From: a virus
IMG/VR virus record: IMGVR_UViG_3300037069_002783
Location: 1-49,735 of that record
Length of the DNA: 49,735 bases
Direction: 5' to 3' (one strand)
Both the position numbers and the translations under genes were made by a program. This document shows positions 7,441 to 33,255 of the stretch, piece by piece (positions within the stretch are counted from its first letter, which is position 1; every line of letters starts with the position of its first letter). Below the pieces are notes generated by a model. The model had not been told where the DNA came from and did not search any database. It worked only from the letters and a program-made list of their open reading frames with translations.

Positions 7441-10400
7441 CTACAGTCCCTTCGCCAGTGCGGCCAGGCGCGGGTCCTGGGTGATCGCGGTGACCAGCTG
7501 GCGGGCAGCCGCCGTGGCCGCCTGCGCGCTGGTGTTGGGCAAGGTGACGTTGATGGCGCCCGCGGCGAAGGAGAGCTGGAGCGTGCCGCCCCCGCCCCGG
7601 GCAGCGCTCTGCGACGCACCGGGGGAGTAGAGGGAGTTCTTCAGCAGCGCGTTGCGCACCGTGTCGGCGTCCGGCTTTTTCAGCACCATCTCGTCGCTGT
7701 GCAGGTACGCCGGGCCGTCCTGCGGTACTGACCAGGTGCCCTCCTTGTACCCGACGTAGGGACGCCCCGCCTTGACCGCCGCCACCCCGGGGACCTTGTC
7801 CAGGGAGCCGTAGCGCGAGGTGGCGTACCCGATGGCGGCCAGGATGTTGTCCACCGGGTTCCAGATGTCGGTGTGCCCGGCTTTCGCGTGCGAGGTGAAG
7901 GTGTCGGGGATGGTCTGCATCAACCCCTCGGAGGGGTGCCCCGAGGACTCGTTGCTGTCGGTCAGGTTGATGTTCCAGGGATCCCCGCCGCTCTCCCCCT
8001 GCGCGATGATCTTCAGGTCCGCGGCGTAGGACGCCGGGTACGCGCCGATCGCCAGCGCGGTACTGATCCAGGAACTGATCGAACCCGGCGGCCGTGCGCC
8101 GGTGGGGACCTTGTAGCTGCGCCCGGAGCGGCCCTTGACGGTGGTGAACACCTTGGGGTCCAGCGCCCCGCCGCCGGTGGTGGCCGCGTCGTTCACGGTG
8201 GCCGCGACGGCGCTCTGCGCGGCCACGGGCGCGGCGACCTTGGTGGACAGCGCCCTGGTGATGGCGTCGACCTCGTTGATCGAGCCGTTGGGGCCGACCA
8301 GCGCCGGACCGGAGAGGGACGCGCTCGCGCCGCTGGCGCTGTTGCCGCCCGCCGCCGCGTCGTTCTGCCCGGTGGCGTCCCCGGCGGAGGGCACCACGCG
8401 GCGCATCGTGGGAAACTCGTTCGGGCTGTAGGAACGCACCCGCACGTTCGCGCCCGTATGCGGCGCCTCCACCAGCTTGCCGCCGCCGACGCACATCGTC
8501 ACGTGTCCCGGCTCCGGGAACATCAGGTCCCCGGGGATCTCGCTGCCGGGCTTGACGGGGGAGCCGATGGTCATCTGCTCCTGGCTGGTGCGCGGGATCT
8601 TGATCCCGGCCGCGCCCCAGGAGGCCTGCGTCAGCCCGGAGCAGTCATAGGCGTCCGGGCCGGTGGCGCCCCACTGGTACGGCTTGCGCAGCTGCGCCTG
8701 CGTCAGAGCGAAGGAGACCGCGCGCGCGGCGGCCTGGGAACCGGCGCCGGTCGAACCGGGGGTGGGGGTGACCGAGGAGGGGCGCGCGCCGCCGCCGGTG
8801 GTGGAGGTGGTGCCGCCGCCCTGCCCGTAGGTGCCGCTGGCGCCGGGGGCCTGGTGGGTGTCCTTGTACCACTCCCACGCGGTGGTACCCAGCCCCCACA
8901 GTCCACCGGCGACCCCGCCGATGATCGTGCCCTCGGGGCCGAACGCGGAGCCGACCAGGGCGCCTCCGGCGGCGTCCGAGGCGGTGGTGCCGCCCATGCG
9001 CGCCAGTTCGCTGCCGGTGCTCGCGCCGGGCTTCGCGCCCGAGAGGCTCTGGCTGGCCTGCGTACCCAGGTAGGCGACGCCCGCGCCGACGCCCGCGCGC
9101 GCGGCCATCTGCAACATCGAGGAGCCGCCCGCCGCGGTGGCCGCGCCGCGCAGCCATCCGGCGCCCCCGCGCCATGCCGCCCCGCCCAGCGCGAGAGAGG
9201 CGATGTTGGTGCCGGTGCCCATCAATCCGTTGGCGATGCCGCCCGCGGTGCTGCCGCCCAGGCGCCCGGTGGTGTAGCCGCCCGCCAGAGCGCCCGCGCC
9301 GCCGGTAAGCCCCGGGAAGGAGGAGGCCCACCCGCCCGCGGTGCCCAGCGCGGTGCCCAGGCCCGTGGAGCTGAGGATCGTGTTGAGGACCTGGTTGAAG
9401 TCGGTGAGCAGCCCGACGCTGTCCTGGAGCGCGGAGTTGAACGAGCCGTAGTTGTCCGCGGTCCTGCTGGTCTGAGAGGCCTGGAGGTCTTTGATCTTCT
9501 GGACGGAGGTGGCGTTGATGCCGTATTTCGCCAGCTGCCCCTGCGCGCCCTTGTCCCCGCGGTCGGCCTGGTCGAGCAGGGTGTTGATCTGCTGCTGGGT
9601 GGCGCCGTGCTGCACGGCGTTGTTGACCTGCCCCAGGTAGCCGGTGAGCATGTCCACCGTGCCCGGCGCCCAGCCGGACTGCTGCGCGAGGTACTGAAGA
9701 TTCGCGTTCAGCGAGCCGCCCTGCCCGATCGCGGCGGTGAAGGTCTGGTTCGAGACGCTGGAGCGGCCCTGGAAGGTGCGGGAGAACGCGTTCTGCGCCA
9801 GGGAGCGCCAGTCGGCCTGCGCGCCGCCGGGGCCGATGCTGGCCTGGTAGCCCAGGGAGCGCAGCGCGAGGTTGGAACGCGGGGAGTAGATCGAGGACAG
9901 GGACTGCGCGGCCTGGGTCTGGGTGACATAGGGGTTGGTGTAGCCCAGCGCGTACAGGCCGGTTTGCGCCTGCTTCCACGCCGGGTTGGTGCTGCCGTCC
10001 GCGTTGAGCATGGTGCGGCCGGAGTAGTAGTTGAGCAGCTGCGCGGCGCTCTGCGCGTCGCCGGGGCTGGCCGCGGTGACGTTCAGGTTCTGGTTGTGCC
10101 CGCCGTAGATCGCCGAGACGGCGCCCTGCGCGGCTGCGGCGTACCCGCCGGGGGCCACCCCGGAGTTCAAGATCCCGTAGTAGGCGGCCTTGTCCATGGT
10201 CAGCACGTTGGGCGTGGTGCGCTGCGCGTAGTTGCCCAGGGCCTTGAAGGCGCCGGTGACCGCCATTCCGGCGGCCAGCCCCAGGGTGCTGACGCCCCCG
10301 CCGCCGCTGCCCGCGCCGCCCGCGGTACCCGCCGCGCCGCCACCGCCGCCTGCGCCCGCGCCACCGCGCTGGTAGGTGCCGATCGCCTGCCCGACGGAGC

Positions 10401-10716
10401 CGAGCACCGAGCCCATGGTGCGCATCGGCGCCCCGCTGGGCGCGCGCTGGGCGTACCCGCCCCCCGTCGCGCCGGAGGAGGTGTTGGTGGAGCGCGCGCC
10501 GGAGGAGGAGGTGGGCACGATGGCGCGGCGGAACTCGGTCGAGGCCTCACGCAGCAGCCCGCCCAGGCCGGTGACGAACCCGGACATGCCGCGGCCCATC
10601 GAGTCCGCGGTGCGTTGCAGGTCATTGAGGCCCAGGGAGTTGGCCGCCACCGGCTGCTCGGCGGCGGGTGCGGCGGGGGTCAGCCGCGGGTCGGGCACGA
10701 TGGGCTGCTCGGTCAC
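7441..10716 (-). CDS. Tape measure protein with NlpC/P60 and transglycosylase domains
   Basis: A 1091-residue protein. GTG start at 10716, with AAGGAGG upstream, overlapping the frameshift extension of the chaperone gene (GTGA). Residues 1-650 are Ala/Gly/Ser/Gln-rich with helical and small hydrophobic stretches, as in tape measures that set tail length and enter the envelope. Around residues 680-780 is an NlpC/P60-type peptidase: YDCSGL with candidate nucleophile Cys692, then PGDLMFPEPGHVTMCV with His738. Around residues 890-990 is a soluble lytic transglycosylase domain of actinobacterial type: GESGGDP with candidate catalytic Glu908, then HPSEGLMQTIPDTF and ATSRYG. The protein is probably both ruler and local cell-wall drill during DNA entry. 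Confidence 0.93.
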   Translation of the reverse strand: MTEQPIVPDPRLTPAAPAAEQPVAANSLGLNDLQRTADSMGRGMSGFVTGLGGLLREASTEFRRAIVPTSSSGARSTNTSSGATGGGYAQRAPSGAPMRTMGSVLGSVGQAIGTYQRGGAGAGGGGGAAGTAGGAGSGGGGVSTLGLAAGMAVTGAFKALGNYAQRTTPNVLTMDKAAYYGILNSGVAPGGYAAAAQGAVSAIYGGHNQNLNVTAASPGDAQSAAQLLNYYSGRTMLNADGSTNPAWKQAQTGLYALGYTNPYVTQTQAAQSLSSIYSPRSNLALRSLGYQASIGPGGAQADWRSLAQNAFSRTFQGRSSVSNQTFTAAIGQGGSLNANLQYLAQQSGWAPGTVDMLTGYLGQVNNAVQHGATQQQINTLLDQADRGDKGAQGQLAKYGINATSVQKIKDLQASQTSRTADNYGSFNSALQDSVGLLTDFNQVLNTILSSTGLGTALGTAGGWASSFPGLTGGAGALAGGYTTGRLGGSTAGGIANGLMGTGTNIASLALGGAAWRGGAGWLRGAATAAGGSSMLQMAARAGVGAGVAYLGTQASQSLSGAKPGASTGSELARMGGTTASDAAGGALVGSAFGPEGTIIGGVAGGLWGLGTTAWEWYKDTHQAPGASGTYGQGGGTTSTTGGGARPSSVTPTPGSTGAGSQAAARAVSFALTQAQLRKPYQWGATGPDAYDCSGLTQASWGAAGIKIPRTSQEQMTIGSPVKPGSEIPGDLMFPEPGHVTMCVGGGKLVEAPHTGANVRVRSYSPNEFPTMRRVVPSAGDATGQNDAAAGGNSASGASASLSGPALVGPNGSINEVDAITRALSTKVAAPVAAQSAVAATVNDAATTGGGALDPKVFTTVKGRSGRSYKVPTGARPPGSISSWISTALAIGAYPASYAADLKIIAQGESGGDPWNINLTDSNESSGHPSEGLMQTIPDTFTSHAKAGHTDIWNPVDNILAAIGYATSRYGSLDKVPGVAAVKAGRPYVGYKEGTWSVPQDGPAYLHSDEMVLKKPDADTVRNALLKNSLYSPGASQSAARGGGGTLQLSFAAGAINVTLPNTSAQAATAAARQLVTAITQDPRLAALAKGL

Positions 10717-30559: not shown

Positions 30560-30737
30560 GAGACCTCCTTGGTGCCCGCGCACGATTCTGGTGATCACCC
30601 TGCACTACGAACGTGTGCTCACAACAGCGAATGCGCGCCATTGGGCCGTCCGAGTGACGAGCGACGAAACATTTCCCATCGCAGGTGTCTGTCGTTAACT
30701 TCGGTCACCGGCAGTGCACGCACGAACGGGAGACGTG

Positions 30738-31130
30738 ATGACCGGCTTCAGAGAGTTCCTGGACCTAGAGGAGAACCTCACCAGAACCGCCCTCGTCCTG
30801 CGGGAGAACGCCCTGCGCGCCGCGAATGACGTGGACGACGACCGGCTCTGCTGCTGGCAGACCGAAAAGGTGGGCGGCCAACTGCAAGTCGTCGAGGTGC
30901 GCACGAACAACACCGGCGCGACCGAGATGGCGATCGTCACAGTGCCCACCGACGGTAGCTTCGCCGAGCACATCGCCGCAACGCACCCGCGCGCGATGCT
31001 CGCGCTCGCGCAACTGCTGGAGCACCAAGCCCAGCGCTTGATGGGCACACCGGCCATCGGCCTGGGCTCTCTACTGGACAGGGACCTCAAAGCCTTCGTC
31101 GACGCCTTCGACGTCGATCTTCATGACTAG
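30738..31130 (+). CDS. DUF6221-like small protein
   Basis: A 130-residue protein, ATG 30738, with GGGAG upstream. Pattern: an N-terminal helix FREFLDLEENLTRTALVL, a CCWQ segment, a beta region, and SFAEHIAATHPRAMLALAQL. This resembles the streptomycete DUF6221 proteins, where a similar AEHIA...P.R.LA..EA motif occurs; function unknown. It leads a plus-strand operon to 33255 in which most genes overlap by 4 bases. Confidence 0.6.
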   Translation: MTGFREFLDLEENLTRTALVLRENALRAANDVDDDRLCCWQTEKVGGQLQVVEVRTNNTGATEMAIVTVPTDGSFAEHIAATHPRAMLALAQLLEHQAQRLMGTPAIGLGSLLDRDLKAFVDAFDVDLHD

Positions 31131-31443
31131 GCCGGACACGTGCCCGCACTGCGGCGTGAGCCTGCTGGGCGAACCGATCGACCCGGCGAAGATCTGGACA
31201 CCCGAAGAATGGGCGCTGCCCTGGGCACAGCGCCCCGCGAACAAGTTCTACGCACCAGGCTCGACGCACTTCCGGCGCGACCTGGCATATGAGGACCATG
31301 ACGTGTACGACGGAGTCCTCTACTACATGTGTCCGGACTGCGACGGCGCGTGGCACTTTTGGACTAAAGCCGATGGAGCGCGTTACCGGGCCGCACAGGA
31401 GGCCGTTGACCACCACAACCGGCACCGAAGGACAACTCAGTGA
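31123..31443 (+). CDS. Zinc-ribbon protein
   Basis: A 106-residue protein, ATG 31123, overlapping the preceding gene by 8 bases. N-terminal CPHCG and later CPDCDGAWHFW form a clear zinc ribbon split by about 60 residues. The insert is rich in Trp and Pro (IWTPEEWALPWAQRPANKFY). Such split zinc ribbons often occur in small phage regulators or host-enzyme binders. Not recognised further. Confidence 0.65.
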   Translation: MTRPDTCPHCGVSLLGEPIDPAKIWTPEEWALPWAQRPANKFYAPGSTHFRRDLAYEDHDVYDGVLYYMCPDCDGAWHFWTKADGARYRAAQEAVDHHNRHRRTTQ

Positions 31444-31859
31444 ACGAACCTCGTAACCGCATCCTTCGCATACGCGACAACGACGAGCTGCTGCGCGCCA
31501 TGAGCCCCGCACAGCGACGCGAATTTCACCACCAGATACGCCGACTCGACGAGATGGCCGAGCACTGGGCATGGATCGACGAACTCGAAGGCGACCTTGA
31601 GCTTGCTCTGGCCGCCGCAGCCGAAGGCGTCTTCAACTGGCCGCAGCGCGAGCCGCACAGCCTCACCTACGACATCGCCACCGACCTGGGGACCCTGCGC
31701 TGCGCCGCCCAGGAAGCACCCCCAGGCGAGGGCCTGCACGTGGTCACCTTCGCAGACCTCGAAGTCGCCCAGAACCGCCTGATGCAGGAGCTTGCGGACT
31801 ACTACGACACCCACGACGCCGTCACCGGCCGACGTTTCGAGAAGGAGACGCACGCATGA
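31440..31859 (+). CDS. Acidic helical unknown protein
   Basis: A 139-residue protein. GTG 31440 overlaps the upstream stop. It is helical and acidic (MSPAQRREFHHQIRRLDEMA, IDELEGDLELALAAAAEGVF, FADLEVAQNRLMQELADYYD). No family recognised. The following gene overlaps it by four bases. Confidence 0.6.
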   Translation: MNEPRNRILRIRDNDELLRAMSPAQRREFHHQIRRLDEMAEHWAWIDELEGDLELALAAAAEGVFNWPQREPHSLTYDIATDLGTLRCAAQEAPPGEGLHVVTFADLEVAQNRLMQELADYYDTHDAVTGRRFEKETHA

Positions 31860-32044
31860 GCCAGGGTGACATCCCCACCCCGCAACAGATCGCAGAGATC
31901 GAAGACTACGACAAACGCGTCACCGAGAACCTCTCCCTGCCGCAACGCCACCGGCGCACGCTGCTGGGCTGGGTCAACGCGCTGCTTGAGGAGAACCGGA
32001 GACTATCCGAGCGCAACCACCAGCTGCCCAACGGAGGCCAGTGA
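31856..32044 (+). CDS. Small helical unknown protein
   Basis: A 62-residue protein, ATG 31856, overlapping its neighbours by 4 bases on both sides. One helix with QIAEIEDYDKRVTENLSLPQ and a C-terminal LGWVNALLEENRRLSERNHQ stretch with coiled-coil character. Unknown role. Confidence 0.58.
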   Translation: MSQGDIPTPQQIAEIEDYDKRVTENLSLPQRHRRTLLGWVNALLEENRRLSERNHQLPNGGQ

Positions 32045-32787
32045 TGCCACCGATGGGACCCCAGGAGCTTGCTGACTTACGCTACGCCGTGGACGACCCG
32101 GCGGCGGAAAACCAGATGTGGCCCAGCAGCGTCGTACGCGCCCTGATCAAGGAGATCGACCGCGTCACCGCGCTGTTCGACGGCCAGGACGACGACCTGG
32201 ACCGCTTCATCCGCCACCAGGTCGCCGGTGACCGGCGCTTCGCGGTGGAATACCTGCACTCCGGCGCCTGCGCCAAGCTGCGCGCCGTACGCCACCGCCA
32301 CCAGCCCTTGCAGGGGCCGGACGGCCTGTACTGCGCGTGGTGCTCGCACATCGCGGGCCTGCGCGTGGACTACCCCTGCGACACGCTCCTGGACATCGGA
32401 CCGGAGGACGATCTGGAAACCCTCGCCGCCACCCGCGGCCAGGGTGCGCCTCGTGCACGCGCAATTGCAGCGATGTCCACGCCGGAGCGCCTCGTCGACG
32501 GCATCGACCTGAGCCGCACCTACATGGACCGCGATGGCGTCAAGTGGTGCTGCATCGGCTGGTTCCAGCCCTGGGGCCAGGAGCGGTGGTTCCCGATGAT
32601 GAGCACCATGACCGGCCGCCACCCCGACTACGTCCTGGACACCCTGCTGCACGTACGCGGTCCCCTGACGGTGGTCAGCGAGCCGGTGCAGACGATCGTG
32701 ACCGGCGCATGGCAGCCACCCGCCGCCGAGATCCTCGTCTTCTCCTCGATCAGCGCCGGAATCGAGGAGACGACGGAGCAGCGGTGA
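32041..32787 (+). CDS. Unknown protein with internal Cys pair
   Basis: A 248-residue protein; GTG 32041 overlaps the preceding gene, while ATG 32044 is a nearby alternative start. The N-terminal half has FIRHQVAGDRRFAVEYLHSG, then YCAWCSH (a CxxC pair) and YPCDTL, resembling actinobacterial small proteins with a helix and a zinc site. The C-terminal half has WCCIGWFQPWGQERWFPMMS, rich in Trp. No family was assigned. Confidence 0.6.
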   Translation: MMPPMGPQELADLRYAVDDPAAENQMWPSSVVRALIKEIDRVTALFDGQDDDLDRFIRHQVAGDRRFAVEYLHSGACAKLRAVRHRHQPLQGPDGLYCAWCSHIAGLRVDYPCDTLLDIGPEDDLETLAATRGQGAPRARAIAAMSTPERLVDGIDLSRTYMDRDGVKWCCIGWFQPWGQERWFPMMSTMTGRHPDYVLDTLLHVRGPLTVVSEPVQTIVTGAWQPPAAEILVFSSISAGIEETTEQR

Positions 32788-33005
32788 TGTACGCCGAACG
32801 CAAGATGACCGACGCGCGCGCACGCGGGGACACCCGCGCCGAACAGTACTGGCGGCACGTGGCGCAGGTCATCGACTCCTGCCCGCCGCTGACCGCGCGC
32901 CGCAAGGCCGACCTGTACCTCATCCTGGGAAGCGCAGACAAGCGCCCGGTGGTGCGGGAAGCTGGAGACGCACAGCCCTTGCCACGACGAAGGAGAGCAC
33001 CATGA
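32787..33005 (+). CDS. Small helical protein before FxSxx peptides
   Basis: A 72-residue protein. ATG 32787 (GTG 32784 is an alternative) overlaps the upstream stop. YAERKMTDARARGDTRAEQY is followed by WRHVAQVIDSCPPLTARRKA and a LYLIL segment. The pattern 'YW..V......PPLT......L' is common in streptomycete small proteins of unknown role. The C-terminus is basic (LPRRRRAP) and its stop overlaps the first FxSxx peptide gene. Confidence 0.6.
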   Translation: MYAERKMTDARARGDTRAEQYWRHVAQVIDSCPPLTARRKADLYLILGSADKRPVVREAGDAQPLPRRRRAP

Positions 33006-33112
33006 ACGAGACGATCACCAGTACCGTGCGCAACATCCGCAGGGTCCCGCTGGGCGAACTCGCAGGAGGCGGTGCGCCTCCGGCCGATGGCGCGTTCAAC
33101 TCATCGATCTAG
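33002..33112 (+). CDS. FxSxx-COOH-type RiPP precursor peptide 1
   Basis: A 36-residue peptide; ATG 33002 with AAGGAG 7 bases before it and a 4-base overlap with the upstream gene. The leader-like part STVRNIRRVPLGELAGG is followed by a C-terminal AFNSSI, so that Phe32 and Ser34 form the FxS followed by two last residues. FxSxx-COOH peptides of actinobacteria are substrates of a radical SAM/SPASM enzyme (FxsB) that makes a cyclophane between the aromatic residue and the residue two on. The C-terminal motif and the 'VPL.EL' leader match. No FxsB-like gene is in the window; a host enzyme could act. Family assignment is by motif. Confidence 0.78.
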   Translation: MNETITSTVRNIRRVPLGELAGGGAPPADGAFNSSI

Positions 33113-33120
33113 GAGCCCAC

Positions 33121-33255
33121 ATGGACACCGCACAGCCCCCCACCGAGTCCGCATCCGGGGAATCCAGCGTCCTGGCCACCAGAGTCCGCGACATGCGCCG
33201 CGTCTCGCTACGGGTCGCCCCATCCAGTACCGGCGACTTCCAAAGCTCGATTTAG
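33121..33255 (+). CDS. FxSxx-COOH-type RiPP precursor peptide 2
   Basis: A 44-residue peptide eight bases after the first; ATG 33121 with GGAG just after the preceding stop. It is paralogous to peptide 1: TRVRDMRRVSLRVAP corresponds to STVRNIRRVPLGELA, and the end is GDFQSSI, placing Phe40-Ser42 as FxS with two final residues. The two copies differ in leader and core, so duplication is old or under diversifying use. This is the last gene of the operon and is followed by a repeat pair and a hairpin terminator. Confidence 0.78.
   Translation: MDTAQPPTESASGESSVLATRVRDMRRVSLRVAPSSTGDFQSSI

Follow-up and report, generated by a model that had tools for sequence, protein, structure and literature searches.

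We analysed a 49,735-base IMG/VR virus record (G000; "the window" below denotes this whole stretch) and observed that a plus-strand operon at positions 30714-33255 ends in two coupled small genes, P1 and P2. P1 (33002-33112, + strand) encodes a 36-residue FxSxx-like precursor with the C-terminus AFNSSI (MNETITSTVRNIRRVPLGELAGGGAPPADGAFNSSI), and P2 (33121-33255, + strand) encodes its tandem paralogue of 44 residues, ending in DFQSSI (MDTAQPPTESASGESSVLATRVRDMRRVSLRVAPSSTGDFQSSI). In both, F-x-S-x-x stands directly before the stop codon. The two adjacent genes, their lengths and their C-termini are exactly as a sequence-only reading of this DNA had claimed, and the ribosome sites that it had credited to both genes were located as AAGGAG for P1 (32990-32995, 6 nt upstream of the ATG) and AGGAG for P2 (33111-33115). 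The P1 ATG overlaps the stop of the 72-residue gene immediately 5' of it (32787-33005, + strand; ATGA), which is preceded in the operon by a 248-residue gene of no known family (32041-32787, + strand). Since P1 starts inside the upstream stop and the P2 ribosome site lies over the P1 stop codon, both P1 and P2 look translated.

The two peptides have V-R-[ND]-x-R-R-V-x-L and a very C-terminal F-x-S-S-I ([NQ] at x) in common, in agreement with the earlier description of a common leader with VRN/VRD, RRV and a Leu element. In P1, the leader element TVRNIRRVPLGEL (33023-33061, + strand) matches the FxsA leaders TSDIRDLRDVPLSLV and STVKDRRVPLAKI and the phage leader SSIRDLRDVPLAEL; its counterpart in P2, VRDMRRVSL (33184-33210, + strand), is degenerate. 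The P1 core F32-N33-S34-S35-I36 (33095-33109, + strand) is a predicted Phe-Ser cyclophane site, and the corresponding core in P2 is F40-Q41-S42-S43-I44 (33238-33252, + strand; for the chemistry of both, see PMC11002830). An FxSxx end is found in 4 of the 647 open reading frames (ORFs) of at least 20 residues in the window, and two of these four are the adjacent pair P1/P2.

We compared both peptides with FxsA precursors (NCBIfam TIGR04268; SjiA family NF040585). They share with FxsA a short leader, an [IV]RDhRxV[PS]L-like element and the exact C-terminal F-x-S-x-x, but they fall below the curated cut-off, are shorter, tandem and phage-borne, and have no FxsB alongside. Against TIGR04268, P1 scored 13.7 bits with its leader part only matched, short of the 28-bit cut-off, and P2 gave no match; neither is a formal member of the family. 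We also built a position-specific profile from the 12-residue leader block and the last six residues of FxsA precursors, with no window sequences in training. Scanned over 22,765 ORFs from 2.15 Mb, with the element-borne L185 then included in the training set, the profile gave 37.0 for P1 and 17.8 for P2, while seven training peptides among these ORFs scored 36-46. The top unrelated ORF, without an FxS end, reached 20.9, so that P1 lies above all unrelated ORFs. With L185 left out and the profile made from 15 chromosomal peptides, P1 scored 33.6 and P2 18.3; left-out chromosomal FxsA peptides ranged from 2.0 to 39.4 in this test, the majority falling at 24-39. None of 20,000 composition shuffles reached the observed profile score, for P1 or for P2. 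The FxsA-type leader score was clear for P1 (15-18) and weak for P2 (3.6-3.9).

By these scores P1 appears as FxsA-like as genuine members, and its identity as an FxSxx precursor, as first proposed, is well supported by profile, leader and core. P2 is fairly supported as an FxSxx-type precursor, a tandem paralogue with a degenerate leader, because of its core and its kinship to P1; both stay below the curated TIGR04268 cut-off, and a lack of similarity to the FxSxx models was among the outcomes that the sequence-only reading had named as counting against it. That shortfall is what would favour a chance resemblance, with the FxSSI ends of two small phage proteins being a coincidence. The profile scores, the shuffles and the end-to-end similarity of P1 to the peptide of an unrelated phage (below) argue against such a coincidence, and we consider it quite improbable. 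Direct searches were less informative: tblastn at E ≤ 10 found nothing for P1 or P2 in phage records or for P1 in plasmids, the peptides being near the length limit of this search, and a two-peptide P1/P2 alignment run against viral and bacterial collections gave pattern matches, none of them confirmed. The matches listed for the same alignment in 395 actinobacterial genomes read as chance.

The window contains sheath, baseplate J, portal, capsid and terminase genes. Its terminase, portal, capsid, sheath and baseplate genes are related to those of BRock-like actinophages and stand in the same order. The terminase shows ~57% identity to its counterparts in the Streptomyces phages BRock and GiJojo and their relatives (112-116 kb), and 93% identity to that of the closest relative, a 108.8 kb record (G001). 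As close relatives measure 105-115 kb, the window probably covers less than half of the genome of a contractile, BRock-like actinophage of ~110 kb. Related terminases (61-70% identical) also occur inside Streptomyces, Nonomuraea, Herbidospora and Terracoccus genomes (L121-L130), which indicates that this large phage group has prophage-like members. Elsewhere in the window, a putative tail protein (185-2341, - strand) has two carbohydrate-binding CBM5/12 stretches, and a 1091-residue protein of the tail region (7441-10716, - strand) combines NlpC/P60 peptidase and SLT transglycosylase domains.

In G001, homologues of both genes upstream of P1 are kept and are followed by a different small gene (L096:6884-7186) at the P1-P2 position, which suggests that the operon end is a hot spot for accessory genes. 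No FxSxx peptide was found in G001. The conservation of the C-terminal motif that the sequence-only reading had looked for in related phages did not materialise, as the P1/P2 pair had no match in forty related records, G001 and 39 others, in a search that carried no positive control; profile runs over the fetched pieces agree with its absence. Judged by its absence from the closest relative, the pair is accessory cargo.

Next, we scanned IMG/VR with a gapped DNA pattern consisting of Pro-Leu-[Gly/Ala]-x-[Leu/Ile], 21-81 bases, and Phe-[NQHK]-Ser-[Ser/Ala]-[ILV]-stop, in which frame was not demanded. This pattern matched the window once, whereas 100 shuffles contained no match. Two versions of it gave ten matches in IMG/VR and a third gave one; all 11 were in frame, and FxSxx-like peptides were recognised in ten of them, spread over seven further phage lineages (L231/234/237/238; L232; L233; L235; L236; L240; L266). 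The match in L239 (38% GC, AKLNPLFKSAI) was rejected as chance. A hit in Arthrobacter phage VroomVroom was discarded for want of an FxS end. The number of lineages is a lower bound, as the scans detect only certain codons and one leader form; a scan with a D-L-R leader pattern had no matches, which leaves the phage census incomplete.

Portal, terminase, capsid or tape-measure genes are present in six of the seven lineages, and in L266 the peptide gene adjoins phage genes for Ro-like RNA-binding and RNase H proteins in a 108 kb contig. The tested peptide-bearing contigs have no homologues in common with the window beyond two scattered matches, and the carriers are thus different phages. The L232 peptide MTGSAVSSIRDLRDVPLAELAAVPVHVLAPEHAPEKPACFQSSI, from an unrelated 98 kb phage, can be aligned end to end with P1 (E 1e-7, as a single comparison). 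Two unrelated FxSxx-carrying phages share a gene (L241:14497-15162 and L262:18954-19637; 55-58% identical) that carries a DRSGS[IM] motif and lies no more than ~0.6 kb from the peptide gene. It is vWA-like by eye and belongs to PHROG 7371, of unknown function; no homologue was found in the other fetched loci. vWA proteins are also part of VMAP systems, which are linked to FxSxx peptides.

We found no report of phage-encoded FxSxx precursors among the open-licence PMC articles searched, and the first reading had likewise been aware of no such precursor in a phage. The scans overturn this uniqueness, with FxSxx-like genes in seven other lineages and one mobile element. By the pattern matches, at least eight phage lineages, this phage included, carry such genes, and their occurrence is neither chance nor unique. 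The genes could have been captured from host FxsA loci and be carried as passive passengers without present function, as the sporadic distribution and a closest relative without the pair might suggest. This is unlikely in view of the tandem arrangement, the coupled translation, the ribosome sites and the recurrence with intact motifs in eight phage lineages.

FxSxx cyclophane peptides are common in actinobacteria. Among 198 surveyed genomes of the class, TIGR04268 matches above the cut-off occurred in 23, with 25 matches in total, of which one (L186) was discounted as false because it lies inside a long helicase-like frame in a genome without FxsB. Counted from coordinates, FxsB is located within ~7 kb of 23 of the 24 true matches in these sampled actinobacterial genomes. 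One FxsA subtype (STVKDRRVPLAKI...FNSAL and similar) stands immediately before a long FxsB, with FxsC and FxsT next in line, and another FxsA, in G201, reads TSDIRDLRDVPLSLV...AAFNSSI; the leader and core of P1 match such bacterial FxsA peptides adjoining FxsB. When a narrower pattern was run over 347 genomes from a single actinobacterial order, its one match was taken as chance.

The sole orphan among the 24 is an element-borne copy in G201 (METTLETGVPDLRDTPLGELTGVEAILARVLGEDRRVEVAAFNSSV, L215:19436-19576), which passes the TIGR04268 cut-off at 32.0 bits. As read from the sequences, it is placed between siphovirus-like prophage genes and recombinase/FtsK-like genes. Like P1 and P2 it is an orphan FxSxx precursor, here adjoining prophage genes, but it is a single copy, is recognised by TIGR04268, and resides in a genome with two FxsB genes, one of which has a look-alike FxsA.

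Phage records, in turn, lacked the maturase. TIGR04269 (FxsB) had no match in the window, in 21 related phage records or in nine peptide-bearing viral contigs, and no FxsB-type radical SAM gene lies near the precursors in the window or in the phage relatives. PF04055 (radical SAM), positive in 14 of 14 control genomes, had none in 21 viral records, the L266 contig among them. The window itself was thus confirmed, by both models, to be free of a radical SAM gene, as had been stated from its letters; being a genome fragment, it proves little by this absence alone. With less than half of the expected genome in the window, the rest of it might supply a radical SAM enzyme that matures P1 and P2. 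The 21 viral records, however, are mostly 82-123 kb long, include carriers of such peptides and contain no radical SAM domain, which makes a phage-encoded maturase very improbable. FxsB scored above its cut-off in five of ten genomes with related prophages, and the other five were without it. Because FxsB is present in these five and no radical SAM gene was found in the phage records, use of a host enzyme by the phage is plausible.

These data lead us to propose that P1 and P2 are orphan FxSxx-COOH-type precursors carried as accessory cargo, which would act in trans as substrate mimics, most likely in counter-defence; we give this reading a probability of roughly 0.45. During infection, the P1 and P2 leaders would dock on the host radical SAM/SPASM enzyme FxsB, which would join Phe to the Ser two residues on, or would at least be occupied by the phage peptides. 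In the reaction of MscB, a three-residue cyclophane-forming enzyme, C-beta of Ser becomes bonded to C4 of Phe (PMC11002830), and by this chemistry the bond is expected at F32-S34 in P1 and F40-S42 in P2. P1 and P2 share the Phe-x-Ser link with triceptides, the products of MscB-type cyclophane enzymes (PMC11002830), as a prediction only. As competitors or imitations of the host's own FxsA product, the phage peptides would then weaken its FxS system, which comprises FxsB, a TIR-like protein (FxsC) and FxsT, an NTPase/TPR protein.

Actinobacterial FxsB-FxsC-FxsT systems (TIGR04269, NF040588/TIGR04276 and NF040586) would supply the presumed partner of leader and core. They differ from the phage arrangement, in which the substrate alone is phage-borne and the other three components (enzyme, TIR-like protein, NTPase/TPR protein) are encoded by the host. 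For a phage with nothing but the substrate, the simplest role would be to compete for host FxsB or to imitate its product. According to a proposal in PMC7159879, FxSxx peptides belong to peptide-processing systems inside conflict systems of actinobacteria that use TIR and AP-ATPase effectors. In Streptomyces, intracellular lanthipeptides give protection from phage (reviewed in PMC12360287). FxsB and FxsC are not among the PADLOC families, and FxsB weakly matches viperin. The one FxS component with a match to a PADLOC candidate family is FxsT, whose N-terminus (L189:11823-15770) matches PDC-M28B as well as a KGGVGR ATPase model. FxS systems are not known from any experiment to defend against phage.

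Every phage copy retains the core F[NQ]S[SA][IV] intact and identical to host cores, a constancy that is partly built in, as the discovery pattern demanded such a core. That the core is kept, and not the leader alone, is no less compatible with an active product than with a decoy, and indicates that being modified or recognised matters. The main rival is accordingly that P1 and P2 are true precursors whose host-matured products are themselves active, as a signal, in superinfection exclusion or as a toxin against competitors, with no decoy involved. An intact core exceeds what a leader decoy would need, but the share of its constancy imposed by the pattern weakens this point, and the surroundings of P1 and P2 in the window contain no recognised gene for a transporter, a protease or immunity. 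We regard active matured products as a real though doubtful alternative to substrate mimicry.

On the substrate-mimic reading, the wider distribution may reflect a recurrent phage strategy, by which phages supply a host radical SAM maturase with stand-alone decoys or mimics of its substrate and so disarm a TIR/NTPase-linked peptide conflict system of the host; this generalisation is tentative, and we lean against it at present. If it were true, FxS would be an anti-phage system and the phage peptides its natural inhibitors. Substrate-only carriage by at least eight phage lineages would also be an independent pointer to a role of FxSxx peptides in phage conflict. At a few dozen residues, peptides like P1 and P2 may serve as ready-made probes for FxsB, both in vitro and in infection.
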